Shown: positions 22,427 through 41,636 of the stretch, one piece after another
Layout: every line of letters starts with the position of its first letter
Position numbering within the stretch: position 1 is the stretch's first letter
Assembly: GCA_001544655.2 (NCBI GenBank)
Contig: FCOD02000027.1
Span: 1-64,000, forward strand
Length of the DNA: 64,000 bases
Source: Caballeronia turbans
GTDB taxonomy: Bacteria > Pseudomonadota > Gammaproteobacteria > Burkholderiales > Burkholderiaceae
Direction: 5' to 3'
Made by a program: the position numbers and the translations under genes
Notes under the pieces: generated by a model
The model's input: only the letters and a program-made list of their open reading frames with translations
Database searches by the model: none
Told to the model about the DNA's origin: nothing

Positions 22427-24124
22427 TTAGAACGTCGACCAGTCGCCGTCAGCCGCTGCCACAACAGCTGCCGGCTTCGGTGCACTCGACGGCTTCAGCA
22501 CTCGCGTCGTCGTGCCGCTCTTCTTCGCGTGTGCGGCGCGCGGCGTCTGAGCAGCACTGTTACTGAGTGGCTGAACGGCAAGCGTCTGACCGGTGCGGAA
22601 CACTCCTACGGCGGTGGTGAGTTGCTTTGCTTGGTCCTCCATCGAACCTGCCGCGGCCGCTGCCTCCTCAACGAGCGCTGCGTTCTGTTGCGTCACCTCG
22701 TCCATCTGTGAGATGGCTTGGTTCACTTGCTCAATGCCACGGCTTTGCTCGTTCGAAGCCAAGGCGATCTCGCCCATGATGTCGGTGACGCGTTGGATGG
22801 CAGTGCCAACTCGCTGCATGGTTTCCCCTGCCCGCGCGACAAGTTCCGTACCGGCTTGAACTCGGTTGCCGGACCTTTCGATTAGATCTTTGATCTCCTT
22901 CGCCGCGGCTGATGAGCGCTGTGCGAGACTTCGAACCTCGCTTGCCACTACCGCAAATCCACGGCCTTGCTCGCCTGCGCGCGCCGCTTCAACTGCCGCG
23001 TTCAGCGCCAAAATGTTCGTCTGGAAGGCGATGCCTTCGATCATTACGATGATCTCAGCGATCTTCGCGGAACTCTCCTCAATGCCCGCCATCGTGTCGA
23101 TGACTTGACCGGCGATGGCCCTGCCCTCGTTGGCGACGACGTTGGCGTTGTCCGCCAGCCCGCTCGCCTGCTTGGCGTTCTCAGAATTCTGCTTGACCGT
23201 CGAGGTTAGCTCTTCCATGCTCGCGGCAGTTTCTTGAAGTGATGCCGCTTGCTCCTCGGTACGCGATGACAGGTCCGTGTTGCCGGCAGCGATCTGTTTG
23301 CTGGCGCTGGCAATCGCCTCACTGCTCAGCCGGACAGTGCTGACAGTGGCGGCCAATTTTTCTTTCATGGCGGCGATGCCGGCAAGCAATTGGCCCATCT
23401 CGTTGCGCGTCTTAATCGACACCTCGTGGGTGAGGTCGCCGTCCGATATGTGCTCGAAATGCTTCAGCGCCTCGCCAAGTGGCGTCATGATGGCCCGGCG
23501 CAGGAAGAACCAGCCGAGCGCTGCGGTAGCAACTCCAACTAGCAAGGCCAACATCCCTAGGGTGCGCATCTCTGACACGCGGGCGTCGCTCTCGGCCGTC
23601 TGACGCTTCGCATCGGCGATTTGGAAGTCCTGCAGCTTCGCGAAGGCTTCGATACACCGGGTATATGACGTGGGCATATCCTGGAAAGCGATGCGCCCGA
23701 TCGCTTCTTTGTCGCCCGCTTCAATCGCAGCGCCGAATCTGTTGATTGCCTGTTGCATAACGGCGCGGGATTCGGCAACGCTCTTTGCCAGTTGATCCTC
23801 GTCGGCTCCGCGCGGTAGGGAGTCATACTTGCTGTACCACTCGTCTGACTGACGCATGAATCCGTTCGCGCGTGCGATCAGTCCGCCCGCGTCTTTGTCC
23901 GTCGGATTTATCGCGTAGCGGTCGAGCGCAAGCCGGGCACGAGCGATGTAGTTGTTTGAAATGCCGAGGGCGTTGACCGCCGGTAGCGAATTCTCAGAGA
24001 TGTCTTTGGTCGATGAATAGGTAGCACTGATGCCGTACAACCCGAAACCGACTGACAGCGCCAGCAGAAAACCGAGGAAAGCCATGGTGAGCGCAAGCCG
24101 CGCCCGAATCGTCAGGTTCTTCAT
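22427..24124 (-). CDS. Methyl-accepting chemotaxis protein
   Basis: 565 residues. Membrane helix 1 at about 8-30, a periplasmic four-helix-bundle ligand domain to about 190, helix 2 at about 190-212 ([20 protein letters not shown]), a HAMP domain, then a long cytoplasmic coiled coil with the hairpin tip ([38 protein letters not shown]). The C-terminus ends DGDWSTF, resembling the NWETF tether for CheR/CheB, implying methylation-based adaptation. Tar/Tsr-like class. The ligand cannot be predicted. On the minus strand GCCGATAG about 90 bp upstream resembles a FliA -10 but without a good -35. Confidence 0.95.
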
Positions 24125-33189: not shown

Positions 33190-34829
33190 GGCCCAGACTG
33201 TGTCAAAACGCATTTTTGGAGCGCTAAAATTTCGCTATCCAATGGTCGGGGATGCGCAAAATGAAGCGTTTCGTTCGAGGCGACGATCGTAACCAGAGTT
33301 TTCTCCTTCCCGAAGCGCTTGATGATTACGTGACGGACACAAATCCGGTCCGCGTGATCGATGTCTTCGTAGAAGAACTTGATCTTAATGATCTCGGCTT
33401 CGAGGGAGTACAGCCAGCCTTGACTGGAAGACCGGCTTATCATCCTGAGGTGATGCTTAAGATCTATATCTACGGGTATCTCAATCGCATCCAGTCCAGT
33501 CGTCGTCTTGAACGCGAAGCGCAGCGAAACGTTGAGATGATGTGGCTCACTGGTCGGCTGGCACCGGACTTCAAAACCATAGCTCGGTTCCGTAAAGACA
33601 ATGGCAAAGCGATCCGCAACGTCTGCCGGCAGTTTGTGATGCTATGCCAACGTCTGGACCTTTTCGCTGATGCGATCGTCGCTATCGACGGCAGCAAGTT
33701 CAAGGCGGTAAACCATCGCGATCGCAACTTCACGAGCGCCAAGCTCGAACGGCGCATGCGCGACATCGAATCAAGTATTGCTCGGTATCTTCAGGCAATG
33801 GACACGGCCGATCGTCAGGAACCTGCAATCGCGAAGGCCAAGACGGAGCGACTGCAGCACAAGATTGCAGCCTTGAAGGAGCAGATGCAACGTCTCAAGG
33901 AGATCGAGGTCCAACTCAAGGCGGCACCCGACGGACAGATATCGCTCACAGATCCGGATGCGCGTTCGATGAAGACGCGAGGAACGGGAGTCGTCGGCTA
34001 CAACGTACAAACGGCCGTCGACACGAAGCACCATCTAATCGTCGCGCACGTCGTCACTAACGATGGTATTGATCGCGATCAGTTGACATCGACGGCCAAG
34101 CTTGCTCGTGCTGAGATGGGCGTCGACAAAATCACTGCTATTGCGGATCGTGGCTATTACAAGAGTGAAGAGATACTCGCATGCCACGAGGCTGGAATAA
34201 CGGTGTTTGTCCCGAAGACGGTGACCTCGATGGCCACTGCTGATGGCCGCTTCGGGAAGGATGACTTCATTTACAACGCAAAGACGAACGAATATCAATG
34301 CCCGGCTGGGGAGAGACTGATTTGGCGATTCTCGACCATTGAGCGCGGCTTGAAGATCAGTAAATACTGGAGTTCGAATTACCAACAATGTCCGTTGAAG
34401 GAGAGCTGCACGCCCAGCCCTCAACGTCGCGTGACTCGTTGGGAACACCAAGCTGTTCTTGAGGATATGCAGGCGCGACTCGATCATGCGCCTGAGATGA
34501 TGCGGATCCGGCGACAGACAGTCGAGCACCCGTTTGGCACGATCAAGGCATGGATGGGAGCCACTCATTTCCTAACTCGAACCATTGAGCGGGTAAGCAC
34601 GGAAATGAGCTTGCACGTGCTTGCATACAACATCAAGCGAGTGACCAAGATACTTGGTTCAGAAGTTGTGATGAAGGCGATGCGAGCGTGATGCTCGCAG
34701 GACTTCTAATCCTCGGCGATAAAGCTCGTCGGCGACTTTGAATTCGGCATGTGCAACGAAAGACGCAACTTGCGCCGAGACAACGCTTCGTCAATTCGAG
34801 TGGCTGTGCGTTTTGACACGGTCTGGGCC
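33190..34829 (+). mobile_element. IS1182-family insertion sequence
   Basis: One transposase gene flanked by inverted repeats: CAGACTGTGTCAAAACGCA from 33194 and its complement ending CTG at 34825 (one mismatch). GGCC stands on both outer sides (33190-33193 and 34826-34829), consistent with a 4-bp palindromic target duplication; the element itself is then 33194-34825, about 1.63 kb. It has cut a gene on the right (34830-35021), whose other half is not found on the left. Confidence 0.85.
33252..34691 (+). CDS. IS1182-family DDE transposase
   Basis: 479 residues, full length. N-terminal FLLPEALDDYVTDTNPVRVID and HPEVMLKIYIYGYLNRIQSS are standard for this family. The catalytic Asp residues are in IVAIDGSKFKAVN and ITAIADRGYYKSEE and the Glu in TVEHPFGTIKAWMG; a coiled-coil insert (ERLQHKIAALKEQMQRLKEI) separates them. 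The frame is intact, so the copy may be active. Confidence 0.93.
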   Translation: MRKMKRFVRGDDRNQSFLLPEALDDYVTDTNPVRVIDVFVEELDLNDLGFEGVQPALTGRPAYHPEVMLKIYIYGYLNRIQSSRRLEREAQRNVEMMWLTGRLAPDFKTIARFRKDNGKAIRNVCRQFVMLCQRLDLFADAIVAIDGSKFKAVNHRDRNFTSAKLERRMRDIESSIARYLQAMDTADRQEPAIAKAKTERLQHKIAALKEQMQRLKEIEVQLKAAPDGQISLTDPDARSMKTRGTGVVGYNVQTAVDTKHHLIVAHVVTNDGIDRDQLTSTAKLARAEMGVDKITAIADRGYYKSEEILACHEAGITVFVPKTVTSMATADGRFGKDDFIYNAKTNEYQCPAGERLIWRFSTIERGLKISKYWSSNYQQCPLKESCTPSPQRRVTRWEHQAVLEDMQARLDHAPEMMRIRRQTVEHPFGTIKAWMGATHFLTRTIERVSTEMSLHVLAYNIKRVTKILGSEVVMKAMRA

Positions 34830-36155: not shown

Positions 36156-36183
36156 GATGGCTTCCAGAGAGAAGCCCCATAAA

Positions 36184-36217
36184 GACTACGCCCGTAGGGA
36201 CGTGGTCCCTTAGGGGC
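36184..36217 (-). promoter_or_regulatory. Pseudoknot-capable leader RNA, copy F
   Basis: RNA 5'-3': GCCC (36217-36214) pairs GGGC (36193-36190) around an inner AGGGA/TCCCT stem. The apical GACCACG (36207-36201) is complementary to CGTAGTC (36190-36184) with one mismatch. The start codon follows 28 nt later. Same layout as the five other leaders but weaker. Confidence 0.5.
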
Positions 36218-36224
36218 AGATATG

Positions 36225-36247
36225 AAAAAGCCGGCTCGTAGCCGGCT
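36225..36247 (-). terminator. Intrinsic terminator
   Basis: Minus strand AGCCGGC-TACGA-GCCGGCT followed by TTTTT. It lies just before leader F, ending the upstream transcription unit. Confidence 0.85.
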
Positions 36248-36365
36248 TGGTCGATGCGTCGGTGACGCGGGTGATAGATGCAGTGTAGGGGTCGGGCGGT
36301 CAGACAATCTGTGGAAAGGTCACTATTTCGCATCGTCTTAAGCTTTGGCGCTGGCGCAACCGACG

Positions 36366-36392
36366 AAAAAAAACCCGGCACGTAGCCGGGTT
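36366..36392 (-). terminator. Intrinsic terminator
   Basis: Minus strand AACCCGGC-TACGT-GCCGGGTT followed by a run of T. Ends the 505-residue gene. Confidence 0.88.
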
Positions 36393-36405
36393 CGTCGAAG
36401 GTGAA

Positions 36406-37923
36406 TTAGCTCGCGCGCTGTTCGAGCGCCACGCGTGCGTAGGCGAGCGTACCGTCGTTTGCACGAAGCGATACCTGCAACTGCCGCACAGGATCTGCGA
36501 GCGCGTAGCGCACGCTCGTCCCCTGCCGCAGGCTGACGATCTGCGAGAAGCCGTCGGCGATCGTGCGATCTACCCACTCCGCACCGGTCAGCACCGCGCC
36601 GTCTTCCGCACGAACGCGCGACATCTCAGCCGCTTCGCGAGCGCGAGCGACCTCGCGGGCGACGCGCCTCGCCTCACGTTGGGAAACCGACAACGCCTCC
36701 CACTCTGCTTGCTGCGCGGCGTCCATACCTGCCAGTTGAAAAATGCCCCGGCGCCGAGCCGCGGCGCGAACGCCGATGAGCTTGATCCCGAACACCTCGC
36801 GCACCGCTTGCTTGCTCGCGCGGTTCGCATCGTCGGGCCGGTCCAGGATACTGAGGAGATAGGACATGTCGGCCGTCTGCACTGCCTTCGCAAACTCGTT
36901 GGCGAAAGTATGCGTGTGCCTGCCGTGATCGAGAATGGCCAGTTGCGAGTCCAGTTGGAAGCGGCGGGCGCTGATGCTGCCCGACTTCCGCGCCTTCTCG
37001 AGTTCCGCTAGCCGGTTATCACGCGCGCTGTCGGCGAGCGTGCGCCGCAGTACCTCCGCAAACTGGCAGGTCGGTAGGCCGACATCGACGGGCTTCTGGT
37101 ACGCCTCAGGCAAAGGATGCGCTTCGAGAATGCCCTTCGCGTACAGCAGGTCGTCGACTTCGACCGTCGTTGGCGAGTTCGGCACGAGACCCATCAGCAT
37201 CGAGAGCAGCGCGGCATTGTCAGAGGTGATCGCCTGCTTCGAATGGCGCATCACCGTTGCGAGCGGCACGAGCTTCGCAAGCGGCAACGCACCACGCAAC
37301 TCCGGCACCGCGAGAATCGGCTTGGCCCATTGCAAGTCGGAATCGAACTTCGACAACGAAACGTAGTCATCGATCACCGCCTGCGGAACGGGCTTGCCCG
37401 CCGCGAGCGCGTAGGCCACATGAACCTCGTGCCGACCGTTGCTCTGTCGATTGTCCAGCACTGGGCCGGCGTAGCGAAAGCCGAACCGACGCTCGGACTC
37501 GTCCTGCAGCAGCTCGAACAGGTCCAGCCCGCGACGGCCGGTCTTAGCCGCCTCTTCGTTGGCTTGCGCCACCTGATCCGATGAGAACAGATACAGCGGC
37601 TCGCGCGCCAGATCAAAAGCCAGATACAGCAGTTGCCAGTGCTCGCGCCGGATTTGCCACGGCTCAGGCGCGGCGAACGACGGTCTGAAGTAAGCCGCGT
37701 CGATCTCGTCGATGAGCGACAGGAAGAGGCTTGTCGCCGTTCCGGGCCGACGAACGGTCAGCTTGCCGTTGTAGCGGGTAACGGTTACAGGATAGGCGAA
37801 GAACGTGAGCGCGATCTCTGCCGCGTCGACTGCTGCGACGCTCGCGTCGTCTCGCAGGAAACGGAGTACTTCGAGCATCGTAGGGAACGAGTGGGCGGAG
37901 CCCGAGAAGGAAAGCTGGTACAT
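36406..37923 (-). CDS. Hypothetical protein of the plasmid/phage-like module (505 aa)
   Basis: 505 residues, soluble, no recognised domain. The N-terminal quarter is alpha/beta (MLEVLRFLRDDASVAAVDAA, YPVTVTRYNGKLTVRRPGTA), the middle is helical, and the C-terminal third contains a charged coiled coil (SQREARRVAREVARAREAAE) followed by a beta segment. It starts at the ATG at 37923, preceded by GAGG; leader A (37946-37985) sits directly upstream and a strong terminator downstream, so it is its own unit. Full length with no frame damage. Confidence 0.75.
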   Translation of the reverse strand: MYQLSFSGSAHSFPTMLEVLRFLRDDASVAAVDAAEIALTFFAYPVTVTRYNGKLTVRRPGTATSLFLSLIDEIDAAYFRPSFAAPEPWQIRREHWQLLYLAFDLAREPLYLFSSDQVAQANEEAAKTGRRGLDLFELLQDESERRFGFRYAGPVLDNRQSNGRHEVHVAYALAAGKPVPQAVIDDYVSLSKFDSDLQWAKPILAVPELRGALPLAKLVPLATVMRHSKQAITSDNAALLSMLMGLVPNSPTTVEVDDLLYAKGILEAHPLPEAYQKPVDVGLPTCQFAEVLRRTLADSARDNRLAELEKARKSGSISARRFQLDSQLAILDHGRHTHTFANEFAKAVQTADMSYLLSILDRPDDANRASKQAVREVFGIKLIGVRAAARRRGIFQLAGMDAAQQAEWEALSVSQREARRVAREVARAREAAEMSRVRAEDGAVLTGAEWVDRTIADGFSQIVSLRQGTSVRYALADPVRQLQVSLRANDGTLAYARVALEQRAS

Positions 37924-37945
37924 GTCGATTGCCTCAGAGAAAATG

Positions 37946-37985
37946 CGGGCAATCGCACCCTGTCGGGTCGATGCCCGGCAAGGGT
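37946..37985 (-). promoter_or_regulatory. Pseudoknot-capable leader RNA, copy A
   Basis: RNA 5'-3': ACCCT (37985-37981) pairs AGGGT (37961-37957). CGGGCA in its loop (37977-37972) pairs TGCCCG (37951-37946) downstream; alternatively CGGG pairs CCCG within the loop. The ATG follows 22 nt later. Confidence 0.65.
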
Positions 37986-38023
37986 TAAGTGCGCCGAATG
38001 GCGCTGGATGAGTTGAGAAGCTA

Positions 38024-38482
38024 TTAGGCCGCGTCGATTAGTCGGGCGATCAGACGCGCGAGCGCCCACGCGTGGTCAATCGAAAACACCTTCGCGCGGA
38101 GCAACGGCATGATCGCGTAGGTGCGGTCGAGCGAGTAGCTAAGCTGCGGGCGGCTGACGAAGTCCACATGGACGATCCAGCCTTCGGAGTTGCCGATGCA
38201 CACCGACACGGAAATGCGGTCATATGCCGCCGGTTCAGGCCACGGTCTGCTGTGGCGTGCTCCGTACATGGCTTCGTTGGCGTCGTCCTGCAAGTTCGCG
38301 TGACAAAGCCACTCCGGTTCGAGCTCCGTTCCACGCACGAAGCGGCACAGGTCCTGGAAGACCTGATCGACCGTTTTGCCGTCGGTGTCCAGCCGGGCGA
38401 CTGACTTGATATCGACTACGCCATCGGCGCTGATACCGTTGGTGACAGCGTCCGACAGCACATCGGCGGTTGCTTGAGACAT
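38024..38482 (-). CDS. Hypothetical protein
   Basis: 152 residues (AVTNGISADGVVDIKSVARL, RISVSVCIGNSEGWIVHVDF, AIMPLLRAKVFSIDHAWALA). Soluble mixed fold, Ala-rich C-terminus. A terminator hairpin (38507-38522) lies 25 nt upstream of its start, so it needs its own promoter or anti-termination. No leader pseudoknot found. Family unknown. Confidence 0.65.
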   Translation of the reverse strand: MSQATADVLSDAVTNGISADGVVDIKSVARLDTDGKTVDQVFQDLCRFVRGTELEPEWLCHANLQDDANEAMYGARHSRPWPEPAAYDRISVSVCIGNSEGWIVHVDFVSRPQLSYSLDRTYAIMPLLRAKVFSIDHAWALARLIARLIDAA

Positions 38483-38506
38483 AACCAGCTCCTGAAATGA
38501 AAAACG

Positions 38507-38522
38507 CGCCCGAGGGCGCGCT
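38507..38522 (-). terminator. Intrinsic terminator
   Basis: Minus strand CGCGCCC-TC-GGGCGCG followed by TTTTT. Confidence 0.8.
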
Positions 38523-38546
38523 AGAAAAAGAAAAATCGAAAAAAAA

Positions 38547-38568
38547 CCGCACCCAAGGGTGCGGTTCT
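38547..38568 (-). terminator. Intrinsic terminator
   Basis: Minus strand AACCGCACCC-TT-GGGTGCGGTT followed by an eight-T run. Ends the 39570-38599 unit; a second terminator lies 25 bp further. Confidence 0.9.
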
Positions 38569-38598
38569 GTCTGTGGACTCAGCTTACGCTGTGTCGAA

Positions 38599-38709
38599 TC
38601 ATTTGCCCCAATCGCGCTCGCGATCGGCTTTGCGACCGTTATTCGCGGTCCACATGAAGAAAGCCGCGATGGACACGCCAAGCACTACCGTAAAAATTGT
38701 TGCGCCCAC
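38599..38709 (-). CDS. Very small membrane protein (36 aa)
   Basis: GTG start at 38709 with AGGAG 6 nt upstream, ending at TGA 38599. One hydrophobic helix (IFTVVLGVSIAAFFMW), then a polar tail (RKADRERDWGK). It is immediately downstream of the gene ending at 38711. Its size, good ribosome site and helix make it a plausible small phage- or plasmid-type membrane protein. Confidence 0.6.
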   Translation of the reverse strand: MGATIFTVVLGVSIAAFFMWTANNGRKADRERDWGK

Positions 38710-38710
38710 G

Positions 38711-39175
38711 TCATTCTCCTTTCATCACGTAATGGCCTGCGTACCACAATACTACTCCAAGGGCAGCCAGTGCGCTCGTACCTGCAATCGTCAGCGGATC
38801 CCAAGACGACGCCGAATGCGCGTAGCCGACTGCACCGCCGATCGATGCCGCCGATAGAGTATGTAGATAGCGGCCGTTTTGGTGCCGCTGGTCCCTGGAT
38901 GGCGTCGCGACTGCGTGCAGCAGTCGGCGGAAGCCAGGACCGGGTTCGGGGGGAATTGATACCAAATACCCGCCGTCGCCCGCCATGTTCACCGGCAAGA
39001 CATCGCCCTTGTACTCAAGACTGAACGACGGCGAGCACTCCGACTCCTCCATCTTGCCGAGTAGCCCGAGTACGCGCGGCGCAAGATGAACTTGGCCTGT
39101 CGCAGGATCGAGAGTGACCCGGTCCACGATCGTGGTGCCGGAGCTGTACTCGATTTTCACCTTGGCCAGTTTCAT
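38711..39175 (-). CDS. Hypothetical protein with C-terminal hydrophobic segment
   Basis: 154 residues from the ATG at 39175, which overlaps the preceding stop by ATGA. The N-terminal two thirds is beta-rich (KLAKVKIEYSSGTTIVDRVT, FSLEYKGDVLPVNMAGDGGY); two C-terminal hydrophobic stretches (SAASIGGAVGYAHS, LTIAGTSALAALGVVLWYAG) suggest membrane association. Followed within 2 nt by the 36-residue membrane protein. Family unknown. Confidence 0.65.
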   Translation of the reverse strand: MKLAKVKIEYSSGTTIVDRVTLDPATGQVHLAPRVLGLLGKMEESECSPSFSLEYKGDVLPVNMAGDGGYLVSIPPEPGPGFRRLLHAVATPSRDQRHQNGRYLHTLSAASIGGAVGYAHSASSWDPLTIAGTSALAALGVVLWYAGHYVMKGE

Positions 39176-39570
39176 CGACGACCTCCGCACTTCAGGTCGA
39201 TGCCACCGGCCAAACGCAGGCCGTCCAGCATCGCTCGATAGCCCGTGGGAGTTTCGAGCTGCGTCAGGGCGACGTGGTTCTCACCACCGCCCGTCAGGTC
39301 AGAGCGGCCGCGCCGGGTTCTGAAACTCAGCGCGACACCTGAACCGCCTCGACGCTCGAGCACGTCGACAAACAACGTCTCGGTGCGCAACGACACCCGT
39401 ACCGCGGCATTGCCGCGGCGCGTATCGGTGACGATTTCGTGAGCATGCGCCGGAAGACGCAAGTCCTGAGCAACACGTCGCAAAACGCGCGTCGCATGAC
39501 GTTGCAGAGCCGCTTTCGCGCCAGCATTGGCACTACTGCGGTCCGCATAGAACACTCGGGGAAATTTCAT
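39172..39570 (-). CDS. Hypothetical protein
   Basis: 132 residues from the ATG at 39570 with GAGG 5 nt upstream; leader B ends 18 nt upstream. Basic N-terminus (FPRVFYADRSSANAGAKAAL), a beta-rich core (NAAVRVSLRTETLFVDVLE, GSGVALSFRTRRG) and a Gly-rich end. Its stop overlaps the next start. Family unknown. Confidence 0.65.
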   Translation of the reverse strand: MKFPRVFYADRSSANAGAKAALQRHATRVLRRVAQDLRLPAHAHEIVTDTRRGNAAVRVSLRTETLFVDVLERRGGSGVALSFRTRRGRSDLTGGGENHVALTQLETPTGYRAMLDGLRLAGGIDLKCGGRR

Positions 39571-39588
39571 GATTGCCTCATTGCAGAC

Positions 39589-39625
39589 GAGGCAGGTCCC
39601 TTGCGGGGAGCCTGCCTCGCAAGGG
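39589..39625 (-). promoter_or_regulatory. Pseudoknot-capable leader RNA, copy B (clearest)
   Basis: RNA 5'-3': CCCTTGC (39625-39619) pairs GCAAGGG (39604-39598), 7 bp perfect. GAGGCAGG in the loop (39618-39611) pairs CCTGCCTC (39596-39589), 8 bp perfect. The two helices interleave as an H-type pseudoknot; the ATG follows 18 nt later with GAGG between. Confidence 0.75.
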
Positions 39626-39675
39626 TTGGCGCGGTTTTCACCGCGCATTCAGAAGATGCGTACTGCGATGCCTGG

Positions 39676-39960
39676 TTAGAGGAATCGCGCCTTGTAAGCG
39701 TCGAGCGCTGGTTTCAAGCGTCTGAAGCTCGCGTCGCCGTAACCGTCGCTGATCCGCCCAACCTCGGCGAACATATGCGGCCGTGCGCCCGATGGGCTGA
39801 ACCCAGGGTGAGACACGATTGCCGTGAACTCGTCGACGTCGCCTGCTTGCGCAGCTACTTCCACCGGACGCATCCCGTAGAAGTTTTTGCCGTTCACATC
39901 GTTGGTCGAAGCGTCCCAGCCGCTGGTCTGGCCGTGGGTGATCAACTGATAGTGGTTCAT
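39676..39960 (-). CDS. Hypothetical protein
   Basis: 94 residues (MNHYQLITHGQTSGWDASTN, NGKNFYGMRPVEVAAQAGD, then RISDGYGDASFRRLKPALDA). Soluble; the KNFYGMRPVEVAAQAGDV part recalls an ankyrin-type repeat. No leader structure upstream apart from a GGCG-GCAA-CGCC hairpin in the 45-bp gap. Family unknown. Confidence 0.6.
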   Translation of the reverse strand: MNHYQLITHGQTSGWDASTNDVNGKNFYGMRPVEVAAQAGDVDEFTAIVSHPGFSPSGARPHMFAEVGRISDGYGDASFRRLKPALDAYKARFL

Positions 39961-40005
39961 CGATGGTTCATCCGTTCATCCAGTTGGTCGAGGCGTTGCC
40001 GCCAG

Positions 40006-40467
40006 TTAGTGGGTGATCCGGTAGCCGGACCCATTCGAGACGAGAAACACCTGCTGACCAACAGCGAACTGCTGATCGTCGACCTGCGTGACGACCACGG
40101 ACTGACCGTTGGCGCGACGAAGGAAAACTTCGACACCGCTGTGGCGAGACATAGCGGCGCTTACGCGTTGAGCCACCAACCCGGAAACCGAGCCGGAAAG
40201 CGCGCCGGCGATATAGCGGCCGCTACCGTTGCCGATGACTTGCGAGCCCAGAAAGGCACCCGCTGCTGCACTGACGATCGATGCAATGCCCGACGAGCCA
40301 GAATTGCTCTCGATGGTGATCGGACGCACGCGCAGGATGGTTGCCTGCTCGAACTGGCCGATGCGTTGAACGTCGTAGCGCTGGTAGGTATCCGGCGAGC
40401 CGAAGTCCGCCGTGGCGCAGCCAGTCAGAACCGAAAGAAGCATCACGGAACAGAAAAACTTGATCAT
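40006..40467 (-). CDS. Glycine-zipper outer-membrane lipoprotein (SlyB-like)
   Basis: 153 residues with a lipoprotein signal (MIKFFCSVMLLSVLTGC) and a Gly-zipper 2TM region (IASIVSAAAGAFLGSQVIGNGSG, IAGALSGSVSGLVAQ) typical of the SlyB/PcP/Rickettsia 17-kDa antigen group, which inserts into or braces the outer membrane. Leader C lies directly upstream (40488-40530). Full length. The only recognisable envelope protein in the module. Confidence 0.8.
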   Translation of the reverse strand: MIKFFCSVMLLSVLTGCATADFGSPDTYQRYDVQRIGQFEQATILRVRPITIESNSGSSGIASIVSAAAGAFLGSQVIGNGSGRYIAGALSGSVSGLVAQRVSAAMSRHSGVEVFLRRANGQSVVVTQVDDQQFAVGQQVFLVSNGSGYRITH

Positions 40468-40487
40468 GGATCACCTCGATTGAATGT

Positions 40488-40530
40488 GAGGCAATCCATT
40501 CCCGAAGGGGCTGGTTTGCCCCAAAGGGAA
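40488..40530 (-). promoter_or_regulatory. Pseudoknot-capable leader RNA, copy C
   Basis: RNA 5'-3': TTCCC (40530-40526) pairs GGGAA (40503-40499). GGGGCAA in the loop (40522-40516) pairs TTGCCTC (40494-40488) downstream, 7 bp with one G-U; alternatively it pairs GCCCC inside the hairpin. ATG follows 20 nt later with GAGG between. Confidence 0.65.
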
Positions 40531-40566
40531 GAGGAACGGGAAATACGCAGCGAAAAGCTACGTGAG

Positions 40567-40701
40567 TCAGTGGGTGACCGAGGCGATTGCCGTCGAGACG
40601 TACACAACGACAACGAGAAACGACAGCATCTTCCAGGCTTCGGCGTCCTGCTTGGCGTACCAGGCGAGGCTGCTGAGAGCGTGTTTGAGCATGGGAAACA
40701 T
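40567..40701 (-). CDS. Very small membrane protein (44 aa)
   Basis: ATG at 40701 with GGGAG 6 nt upstream, TGA ending at 40567. Sequence begins MFPMLKHALSSLAWYAKQD and ends in one hydrophobic helix (LSFLVVVVYVSTAIASVTH). Leader D ends 21 nt upstream of its start. No family recognised; size and context suit a small phage- or plasmid-type membrane protein. Confidence 0.65.
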   Translation of the reverse strand: MFPMLKHALSSLAWYAKQDAEAWKMLSFLVVVVYVSTAIASVTH

Positions 40702-40722
40702 GGGCAACTCCCGAGAAAGGTA

Positions 40723-40755
40723 GGAGCCGCCCTCGATGGGAGGCTCCCATCAAGG
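40723..40755 (-). promoter_or_regulatory. Pseudoknot-capable leader RNA, copy D
   Basis: RNA 5'-3': CCTTGATG (40755-40748) pairs CATCGAGG (40738-40731), extendable to an 11-bp hairpin. GGAGCC (40747-40742) pairs GGCTCC (40728-40723) downstream, competing with the top of the hairpin. ATG follows 21 nt later. Confidence 0.65.
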
Positions 40756-40818
40756 AAAGATTTGGAACTGAAGAAGCGGCGTCCAGCGAACTGCACTGGA
40801 CGCGTCATTTACGAAAAC

Positions 40819-41064
40819 CTACGAGGCGGTATGGCTGAGGTGATGCAGTCTGACACGACCGCTTTGCACCAGATGCCGTTCGGCTTGATGGTTGAGCGAA
40901 TAGTCCCAGTCCACCATTGCCGTTCCGTCGCTCCATACCGAATGAATGCGTCCGGTGTAAAGCTGCGGCGGGCTGGCCTCGACGTCTTGACCGACCACAC
41001 GCTGATTCGCCATGAAACCGTTATTGCTGGCGACTTTGACGACAGGTGCGAGATTGCGAGACAT
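40819..41064 (-). CDS. Hypothetical protein
   Basis: 81 residues from the ATG at 41064 with GGAG 6 nt upstream; leader E ends 19 nt upstream. Beta-rich sequence (LAPVVKVASNNGFMANQRVV, LYTGRIHSVWSDGTAMVDWD), like a small SH3-type domain, with a His-rich end. Family unknown. Confidence 0.6.
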   Translation of the reverse strand: MSRNLAPVVKVASNNGFMANQRVVGQDVEASPPQLYTGRIHSVWSDGTAMVDWDYSLNHQAERHLVQSGRVRLHHLSHTAS

Positions 41065-41083
41065 AGACAACTCCAAAAAATAA

Positions 41084-41121
41084 TGGGAGCTATCTCCCGG
41101 AGGGATAGGCTCCCAACGGGA
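41084..41121 (-). promoter_or_regulatory. Pseudoknot-capable leader RNA, copy E
   Basis: RNA 5'-3': TCCCG (41121-41117) pairs CGGGA (41099-41095). TGGGAGC (41115-41109) pairs GCTCCCA (41090-41084), 7 bp perfect, competing with an internal GGGA/TCCC. A U-rich stretch and GGAG follow before the ATG 19 nt later. Confidence 0.68.
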
Positions 41122-41129
41122 CGAAAAAA

Positions 41130-41149
41130 GGCGACCAACAAGGGTCGCC
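41130..41149 (-). terminator. Intrinsic terminator
   Basis: Minus strand GGCGACC-CTTGTT-GGTCGCC followed by TTTTTT. It lies just upstream of leader E, so the 41064 gene is the start of a new unit. Confidence 0.88.
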
Positions 41150-41390
41150 AGAAGATTGCCGTCATAAACGGCTGGAGAGAAGCTGGTCCTCCAGCACGCT
41201 GGAGGGGTAGGTCGATGCGCTAAAGCGCGGGGTATGGAGCCAGTCTACGGAGTCCATCGCGCAGTCCAAGTCGGAAAGCTCAGTAAATCGCTATGCCTTT
41301 CGCTCCAATACGGCGACAAACACTTCTCGGGCGGTCGCTTCCCGCGCGACGAATCATCGGGAGCGGGGCCGGCAGCACGAAGCCGGAACG

Positions 41391-41425
41391 AAAAAAAGCG
41401 CCAGCTCCATTTCTGAAGCGGCGCT
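41391..41425 (-). terminator. Intrinsic terminator
   Basis: Minus strand AGCGCCGCTTC ... GGAGCTGGCGCT hairpin followed by a seven-T run. Confidence 0.85.
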
Positions 41426-41636
41426 AAAAAGTCCGTCGCAAATCCGAGGGCCGTCGACGAACCTGAGAGAGACGCCATTCTAGCCATCGATACCGTAGCC
41501 GATGCGTAGAAAAGGACGCTAAAAAGCGTCGCTATTCGAAATAGACACGTTCCCAATACGGGAAGCAAAGTGAGAGCATTCCGACAGACGCGTAAGGTGC
41601 AAGGAGACGCTGGTAGCTGCGCATTTCCAGGGCGAA

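Follow-up and report, generated by a model that had tools for sequence, protein, structure and literature searches.

Introduction

In the repZ/repA leaders of IncI (ColIb-P9), IncB, IncL/M and IncK plasmids, a hairpin holds the Shine-Dalgarno (SD) sequence, and the loop of an upstream stem-loop reportedly frees it by pairing with the hairpin's 5' arm. Systems of the repZ type serve one replication gene per plasmid and work with a leader peptide and an antisense RNA. The erm and trp attenuator leaders use exclusive pairings between strands (1:2, 3:4 and 2:3), and in erm strand 4 holds the SD. Here we analysed 64,000 nucleotides (nt) of Caballeronia turbans (contig FCOD02000027.1, positions 1 to 64,000; hereafter the window), in which a gene module on the minus strand bears six leaders of a comparable layout. 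They seem to belong to a large undescribed family of on/off leaders standing before many neighbouring genes on mobile plasmids. We put the probability that each leader is a cis-acting translational switch, working by strand exchange and OFF when one arm holds the SD, at about 0.72.

The closest mechanism is the repZ-type pseudoknot switch of the I-complex plasmids. In both cases the SD of the gene is held in a hairpin, which here covaries and is the predicted fold in four of the six window leaders, and an upstream loop is complementary to the 5' arm of that hairpin, as judged here from swap tests. The leaders described here differ in serving many accessory genes per element, with no match at the repA gene of plasmid pKAZ2, and in that their upstream strand is mostly buried in a stem (stem 1). 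As in the attenuators, strand 3 chooses between strands 2 and 4, with the SD in strand 4 as in erm; unlike in the attenuators, no leader peptide over strand 1 was noticed, in an inspection that did not search short open reading frames (ORFs) systematically.

No family of Rfam 15 matched the six leaders at the gathering score or at E 5. When 40 related loci were scanned with Rfam at E 0.5, only the loose 3' hairpin of radC RNA (RF01754) overlapped a listed leader, and only one (radC RNA at 2514-2668 of L161, leader at 2636-2701, in a related genome). radC RNA is likewise a cis-regulatory RNA of mobile-element genes, but its conserved core lies upstream and has another structure, only the loosely fitting 3' hairpin falling on the leader; its covariance model had no match in the window. 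The STAXI motif, a pseudoknot element in two or three tandem copies, occurs in the neighbourhood of ssb, antirestriction and integrase genes (PMC2864571). The leaders, in contrast, stand one per start codon, and no STAXI match was listed in the Rfam scans. The tisB mRNA has a sequestered ribosome-binding site, a pseudoknot that binds S1 and a standby region ~100 nt upstream that recruits 30S (PMC7708055). The tisB mRNA would share with the leaders a sequestered SD and an upstream structure needed for translation, and differs in that the upstream strand here would compete directly for the anti-SD strand. A literature search, most of the subscription literature being outside its reach, gave no description of the leader family among the matches listed. 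Given no Rfam match and no such description, we file the leaders as a new RNA family with a known kind of switch mechanism, one that stands out by the number of genes and elements over which it is spread.

Each arm has two partners in the six leaders

The initial annotation had described six leaders, each with a stem 1 enclosing a strand that also pairs just downstream (stem 2). All six were located on the minus strand at the starts it gave, with the stem-2 pairs it named, and their coordinates were checked (Table 1). In five of them the 3' strand of stem 2 is what we call the arm, and in all six the arm is also complementary to the SD strand (arm/SD pairs GATTGCC/GGCAATC, TGCCTC/GAGGCA, GGATTGCCTC/GAGGTGATCC, GGGCGGCTCC/GGGAGTTGCCC, AGATAGCTCC/GGAGTTGTCT and GGCTTC/GAAGCC). 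The leader of the MoxR-like AAA ATPase gene has a variant geometry, with the 3' strand of stem 1, instead of stem 2, complementary to the SD strand. One strand thus has two partners, the SD strand itself and an upstream strand (B) that resembles it. Because loop:arm and arm:SD share the same arm, they are mutually exclusive. The two exclusive folds proposed earlier were supported in kind, the best supported alternative being an SD-sequestering hairpin that had not been named.

We scanned for this geometry, requiring that an upstream strand and an SD strand share one arm. Four of the six leaders reached the strong threshold, against an average of 0.295 (maximum 2) in 200 dinucleotide shuffles of the module; the 505-amino-acid (aa) gene leader, which has a bulge, and the MoxR leader, with its different geometry, were not recovered. 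The scan also gave 25 strong sites in 297 kb of the genome's other contigs (both strands), and it scored inside genes as well. Geometry alone is therefore weak evidence, of use here only as a check on chance, and it is the homologous leaders that decide.

Both pairings are kept while their bases change

We fetched 54 loci with a MoxR gene and cut out the leaders ahead of homologous genes where these were found. The homologous leaders keep both pairings while the bases change, and the three strands change together, as from GGGCAACC..GGTTGCCC..GGCAACC to GGGAGCC..GGCTCCC..GGAGCC or GGGGCACG..CGTGCTCC..GGAGCAC, among others. In 22 leaders of the glycine-zipper lipoprotein gene, stem 1 and the SD hairpin were 88.1% paired; double-change cells numbered 42, whereas sliding the pairing left 2-7. 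The loop:arm helix of the same leaders was 82.4% paired, against 35-62% slid; its covariation was weaker, since none of 500 shuffles reached its score yet a one-column slide scored slightly higher.

A covariance model of the OFF fold (R1) was built from these 22 leaders of a single gene. With a cutoff of E 0.3, 104 matches from 39 sources were obtained; a second model (R2) was built from these, and the 104 rows were aligned to the model. Two of the rows are spurious, being of the non-leader kinds described below, and were part of the set that trained R2. Among 103 distinct leaders, stem 1 and the SD hairpin had 303 double-change cells against 7-30 slid, and all seven arm:SD pairs had changed on both sides. 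Loci outside the family Burkholderiaceae (all 49 rows) gave 178 such cells for the fold against 7-19 slid. The initial claim of different bases with kept pairing is borne out by these counts and by the swap tests.

In the swap test, arms were exchanged between leaders, so that partner strands did not have to be aligned; the covariance model had at no point included the loop:arm pairing. Of 161 leaders 149 were parsed, 114 of these not MoxR, and 109 were kept. With the loop and 4 nt of stem, a leader's own loop:arm pairing averaged -13.0 kcal/mol, against -9.1 (standard deviation, sd, 0.26) in 2000 permutations, and it still beat permutation when arms were swapped only within a gene family (-10.8, sd 0.22). 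Among 57 non-redundant, model-parsed leaders of the 104, loop:arm gave z -9.3 and arm:SD z -12.7, against +1.6 for loop:SD as a negative control. For 39 leaders outside the Burkholderiaceae and the training set, the values were -9.1, -11.5 and -0.6, after 10 of the 49 rows had been dropped for overlapping matches on the other strand. None of these z values is an exact probability, since the leaders are related to each other.

For 32 MoxR leaders, stem1:arm gave z -6.0 and arm:SD z -5.5 (0/5000 each). Counted on one alignment (A5), the MoxR SD hairpin paired at 50.5%, no better than shuffles, and this failure probably stems from differing registers, the alignment-free swap being positive. The weak inner pair of this leader, GACCACG/CGTAGTC, is present as first annotated and pairs in 70.6% of cells in the 32-leader alignment, but it did not stand up to the swap test (z -1.3, reached by 513 of 5000 permutations). 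On this comparative evidence, both pairings, loop:arm and arm:SD, exist and are conserved.

Six stem-1 C/G positions were 99-100% conserved (weighted, 104 leaders). In the loop, positions 20 and 24 are conserved, and their pairing partners are arm positions 67 and 62. A small-molecule riboswitch would suit the leader position, the two folds and the control of the SD, and the initial annotation had offered a small molecule as one possible signal. However, a conserved unpaired core was sought in the 104 leaders and none was found; no aptamer-like core is seen, since the only well conserved unpaired stem-1 loop positions pair with the arm. The downstream genes are also unrelated, and we consider a riboswitch very improbable. 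CsrA/RsmA targets were likewise rejected, as GGA lay wholly within the apical loop of stem 1 in 0 of 104 leaders (23 of 104 when the inner stem was counted).

The leaders precede unrelated genes on plasmids and beyond Burkholderiales

When R1 was applied to 830 kb, 94 matches had E ≤5. Among them were leaders of the 505-aa, 132-aa, 81-aa, MoxR and other genes, and there was no match in 14 stretches of 20 kb (280 kb) from the genome's other contigs. A model from one gene thus finds the leaders of others. The one repeated architecture ahead of unrelated genes that the initial annotation had described is supported. Eleven of the 94 matches are not leaders: ten lie on the opposite strand of module loci and one, at window 23486-23564, within a coding-like stretch.

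The search of plasmids and integrative and conjugative elements (ICEs) with a covariance model, proposed at the outset, uncovered a wider family well beyond Burkholderiales. R2 matched in 29 of 150 Burkholderiaceae genomes at E 0.1 and, at E 0.05, in 19 of 369 genomes of the class and 14 of 398 of the phylum, the window's genome being included in each. Single weak matches may be false, and two of them (L294, L295) do not look like leaders. Arrays were found around matches outside Burkholderiaceae, for example five matches within 2.4 kb in L166. Ten proteins behind such leaders were compared with Pfam; six matched (RadC, SNF2-type helicase, ArdC, RecT, MoxR-type AAA and DUF932) and four did not. 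The same genome as the window has a leader match on another contig (G000:C82:4096-4152, L201 1097-1153, E 0.0012).

Four stretches of the IncC plasmid pKAZ2 (166 of 177 kb) hold 17 matches at E 0.1. All of these run the same way, and the genes behind them include a CobS-like AAA gene, ssb, bet and the gene next to bet. No match was seen in the two stretches that hold the relaxase gene, most tra genes, partition and repA. Two pKAZ2 matches (L318, 6681-6746 and 12127-12194) end without an annotated start, perhaps at a missed gene and at a start placed too far downstream. One Comamonas testosteroni and one Vibrio fluvialis plasmid bear similar leader series. In two genomes with few contigs the leaders sit on smaller contigs: G530:C4 has 18 matches in 340 kb (E 0.1), with none in 60 kb read from the two largest contigs of G530, and G020 has many on C2 and C3, with none in 80 kb of C1. 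Viral contigs were searched with two narrow patterns, of which one gave 0 loci and the other 50; R2 at E 0.05 bore out none of the 50, and within the reach of these patterns there was no sign of phages.

Many leaders on one element, such as the 18 and 17 matches of G530:C4 and pKAZ2, together with the conserved stem-1 C/G positions, would suit a plasmid-encoded RNA-binding protein or host chaperone. Such a factor would read the stem-1 shape CCC..GGG..CCC..GGG and govern all leaders jointly, making the module one translational regulon. The sole candidate looked for was PRTRC, whose ThiF goes with the leaders in Burkholderiaceae (17 of 18 PRTRC genomes). Among the 19 leader genomes in the class draw, however, only G049 has PRTRC ThiF, and we rejected PRTRC as the controlling system. 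A protein reader of this kind is possible, if on balance unlikely.

Strand exchange as a proposed translational switch

Under the strand-exchange reading, stem 1 would be closed in the OFF state, with the arm paired to the SD strand and the ribosome site hidden. In the ON state the arm would be taken by strand B, on the loop side of stem 1 and in effect a copy of the SD strand, around a small hairpin, leaving the SD free; in the MoxR type the 5' strand of stem 1 would take the arm. OFF would then lower and ON raise translation.

The predicted minimum-energy fold (75 nt) contains the SD hairpin in the MoxR, lipoprotein, 44-aa and 81-aa leaders, and the upstream pairing in the 505-aa and 132-aa leaders. 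Over 66 nt, the SD strand had a probability of being paired, to whatever partner, of 0.86 in the 505-aa, 0.52 in the 132-aa, 0.99 in the lipoprotein, 0.88 in the 44-aa, 0.94 in the 81-aa and 0.83 in the MoxR leader; the mean over the 109 folded leaders was 0.70 (any partner). Freeing the SD would cost 6.9 kcal/mol on average, and 95 of the 109 leaders then take the upstream pairing; the computed balance between ON and OFF is close.

An SD hairpin before many genes might also act as an RNA thermometer, melting on warming while the upstream pairing just tunes it. The arms are, however, G/C-rich and not of the fourU type, most of the SD hairpins printed lie at -9 to -19 kcal/mol, and the loop:arm covariation would not be needed, which makes a thermometer a most unlikely account.

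The initial annotation had read stems 1 and 2 together as a pseudoknot, a reading that was not supported. Connecting loops spanning both stems, as in an H-type pseudoknot, were not found: the connector from stem 1 to the arm is 0-3 nt in 94 of 104 leaders. Since ≤3 nt would be too short to cross a stem of 7-10 base pairs, stem 1 and loop:arm are better read as alternatives. They probably exclude each other at least in part; a partly opened stem 1 could coexist with loop:arm.

Our first guess at the trigger, held tentatively, is a kinetic one. The arm would leave RNA polymerase before the SD strand and pair upstream, keeping the SD open on young transcripts; the RNA would later relax to the SD hairpin, and ribosomes or an RNA-binding protein might do some of the tuning.

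Several observations weigh against a strand-exchange switch or limit the evidence for it. Only 76 of the 109 leaders have an OFF-like minimum-energy fold, and 36 have an ON-like one. The preference for the upstream pairing in prefixes that end at the arm (9.3 kcal/mol on average, >2 in 101 of 109) fits a kinetic window on nascent RNA but largely follows from one arm having two partners. Loop nucleotides alone gave a small swap effect (-5.4 versus -4.4 kcal/mol, sd 0.14), and the 132-aa family hardly showed one (-8.9 versus -8.1, with 4 nt of stem added). Swaps among 30 leaders of the IncC, Comamonas and Vibrio plasmids (one of 31 rows dropped) supported both pairings (z -9.3 for loop:arm and -11.5 for arm:SD), but with a negative control that was not clean (z -2.4, 39/5000). 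That 14 of the 17 pKAZ2 matches end ≤3 nt from an annotated start codon, 13 of them exactly, speaks for the switch but is helped by the AUG contained in the models, so that the proper null would be SD-bearing AUGs rather than any position. The site-by-site covariation check proposed by the initial annotation, carried out in an R-scape-like version (a G-test with average product correction against tree-simulated alignments, on the lipoprotein and MoxR leader sets), found no significant pair: none reached E 0.5 in either set with 100 simulations, and with 30 the best E were 0.80 and 1.20. This null is probably due to low power from few deep clades; the aggregate tests, unlike the site-by-site test, were significant.

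Lastly, UUUU stands within 12 nt after the arm in 47 of 104 leaders, which would also suit termination of transcription by the ON helix. The leaders would then be transcription attenuators, with loop:arm plus the U-rich tract as intrinsic terminator and stem 1 as antiterminator, and terminator-like sites are indeed in excess on the module strand (see below). The other 57 leaders lack UUUU, for example the Cupriavidus 505-aa leaders with a short SD-hairpin loop, and attenuation leaves the conserved arm:SD pairing unexplained; we give it little credence. A natural variant of the switch was seen by eye in the 132-aa leaders of L051-L069, L077, L082 and L083, which are mostly without the 5' strand of stem 1, leaving a simple hairpin (for example GCGAGGTG..CACCTCGC) ahead of a U-rich tract; some loci have no leader.

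The module and its surroundings

The leader-bearing module lies on the minus strand of the window's contig (C81) and shares 90-93% identity with four Caballeronia plasmid records over matching stretches. Its genes encode the MoxR-like AAA ATPase, the 505-aa protein (no Pfam match), the glycine-zipper lipoprotein and several small unknown proteins. Relatives were found on Burkholderia, Paraburkholderia, Caballeronia and Cupriavidus plasmids. In the four annotated relatives read, a PRTRC cassette adjoins the module in all and a VirB-type conjugation system stands beside it in three. PRTRC ThiF had no match anywhere in the window's whole genome, although the relatives carry the cassette beside the module. 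Where annotated relatives have a hypothetical and a VWA-like gene, the window has a 479-aa ORF (33252-34691, plus strand), which we take to be transposase-like.

In five of the six leaders, 36-188 nt separate stem 1 from the end of the preceding gene. Between window positions 34700 and 42000 the terminator-like hairpins number 16, where shuffles gave 7.1 (sd 2.5); the minus strand has 14 of them, and some stand shortly before switch leaders. A promoter-like site was looked for on the minus strand of this stretch and none was seen; the excess of hairpins without such a site hints at antitermination or read-through. The 152-aa gene is preceded by no switch leader that we could see.

Table 1. Window coordinates of the six leaders, their strands and nearby terminator-like hairpins.
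Feature	Span	Strand	Start codon	Stem 1	Upstream strand	Arm	SD strand	Basis or remark
81-aa gene leader	41065..41120	-	41064-41062	41096-41120	B, TGGGAGC, 41109-41115	AGATAGCTCCCA, 41084-41095	GGAGTTGTCT, 41065-41074	R1 match 41062-41123, 18.6 bits, E 0.058
44-aa gene leader	40702..40754	-	40701-40699	40731-40754	B, TGGGAGCC, 40742-40749	GGGCGGCTCCT, 40722-40732	GGGAGTTGCCC, 40702-40712	Homologous leaders in related loci; absent from R1 matches
Glycine-zipper lipoprotein gene leader	40468..40530	-	40467-40465	40499-40530	B, TGGGGCAA, 40516-40523	GGATTGCCTCA, 40487-40497	GAGGTGATCC, 40468-40477	R1 match 40465-40531, 51.4 bits, E 2.4e-10; R1 trained on this leader's homologues
132-aa gene leader	39574..39625	-	39570-39568	39598-39625	B, GCGAGGCAGG, 39611-39620	CCTGCCTCGT, 39587-39596	TGAGGCA, 39574-39580	R2 match 39568-39627, E 9.6e-4
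505-aa gene leader	37926..37984	-	37923-37921	37958-37984	B, CGGGCATCG, 37969-37977	CGATTGCCCG, 37946-37955	GAGGCAATCG, 37926-37935	R1 match 37923-37986, 39.2 bits, E 3.1e-7
MoxR-like AAA ATPase gene leader (variant geometry)	36159..36217	-	36155-36153		Stem-1 5' strand, GCCCC, 36213-36217	GGGGCTTC, 36171-36178	GGAAGCC, 36159-36165	Inner hairpin at 36197-36209; inner pseudoknot (36201-36207 with 36184-36190) possible but not supported
Two terminator-like hairpins before the 152-aa gene	38503..38568 (38543-38568, 38503-38522)	-						Not part of switches; homologues in related loci
Terminator-like hairpin	41130..41149	-						Ends ~10 nt ahead of the 81-aa switch leader

Upstream of the first leader, at window 41390-41473 on the minus strand, there is a match to the small RNA family ncS54 (RF02871, 45.9 bits). 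Antisense or small RNAs that bind the stem-1 loop, one per leader or shared, would be in keeping with the layout, which is that of the repZ pseudoknot switch. Yet ncS54, the one Rfam small RNA nearby, was present in only one of six other module loci scanned and is thus not a regular companion of the module. No single RNA fits all leaders, since the loop sequences differ between the leaders of one element, and control by such RNAs is improbable. The Rfam RNAs sbcD, DUF3800-VII and ncS54 also occur on the related plasmids L085, L086 and L088; in L088 the sbcD RNA stops ~80 nt before a gene start that was also scored by the geometry scan.

Discussion

We regard it as doubtful that conjugative plasmids and ICEs carry element-wide, ligand-free RNA timers on many accessory or DNA-processing genes (ssb, bet/exo, ArdC, RadC, AAA and others). 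Such genes would be translated mainly from fresh RNA, the anti-SD arm being parked on the upstream copy of the SD before it closes the SD. If so, stale or read-through transcripts of these genes would stay silent and newly made ones would be translated, as might happen once the element has entered a recipient.

If the leaders are strand-exchange switches, they would form an overlooked layer of translational control on major conjugative elements, the IncC group included. One RNA design would have been copied or have re-evolved before dozens of unrelated genes, its sequence freely changing, and the turnover of sequence with the three-strand complementarity kept may explain why RNA searches based on homology have missed it. 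The leaders would also mark out recombination, anti-restriction and other accessory genes of these elements as a regulon that can be put to a direct test.

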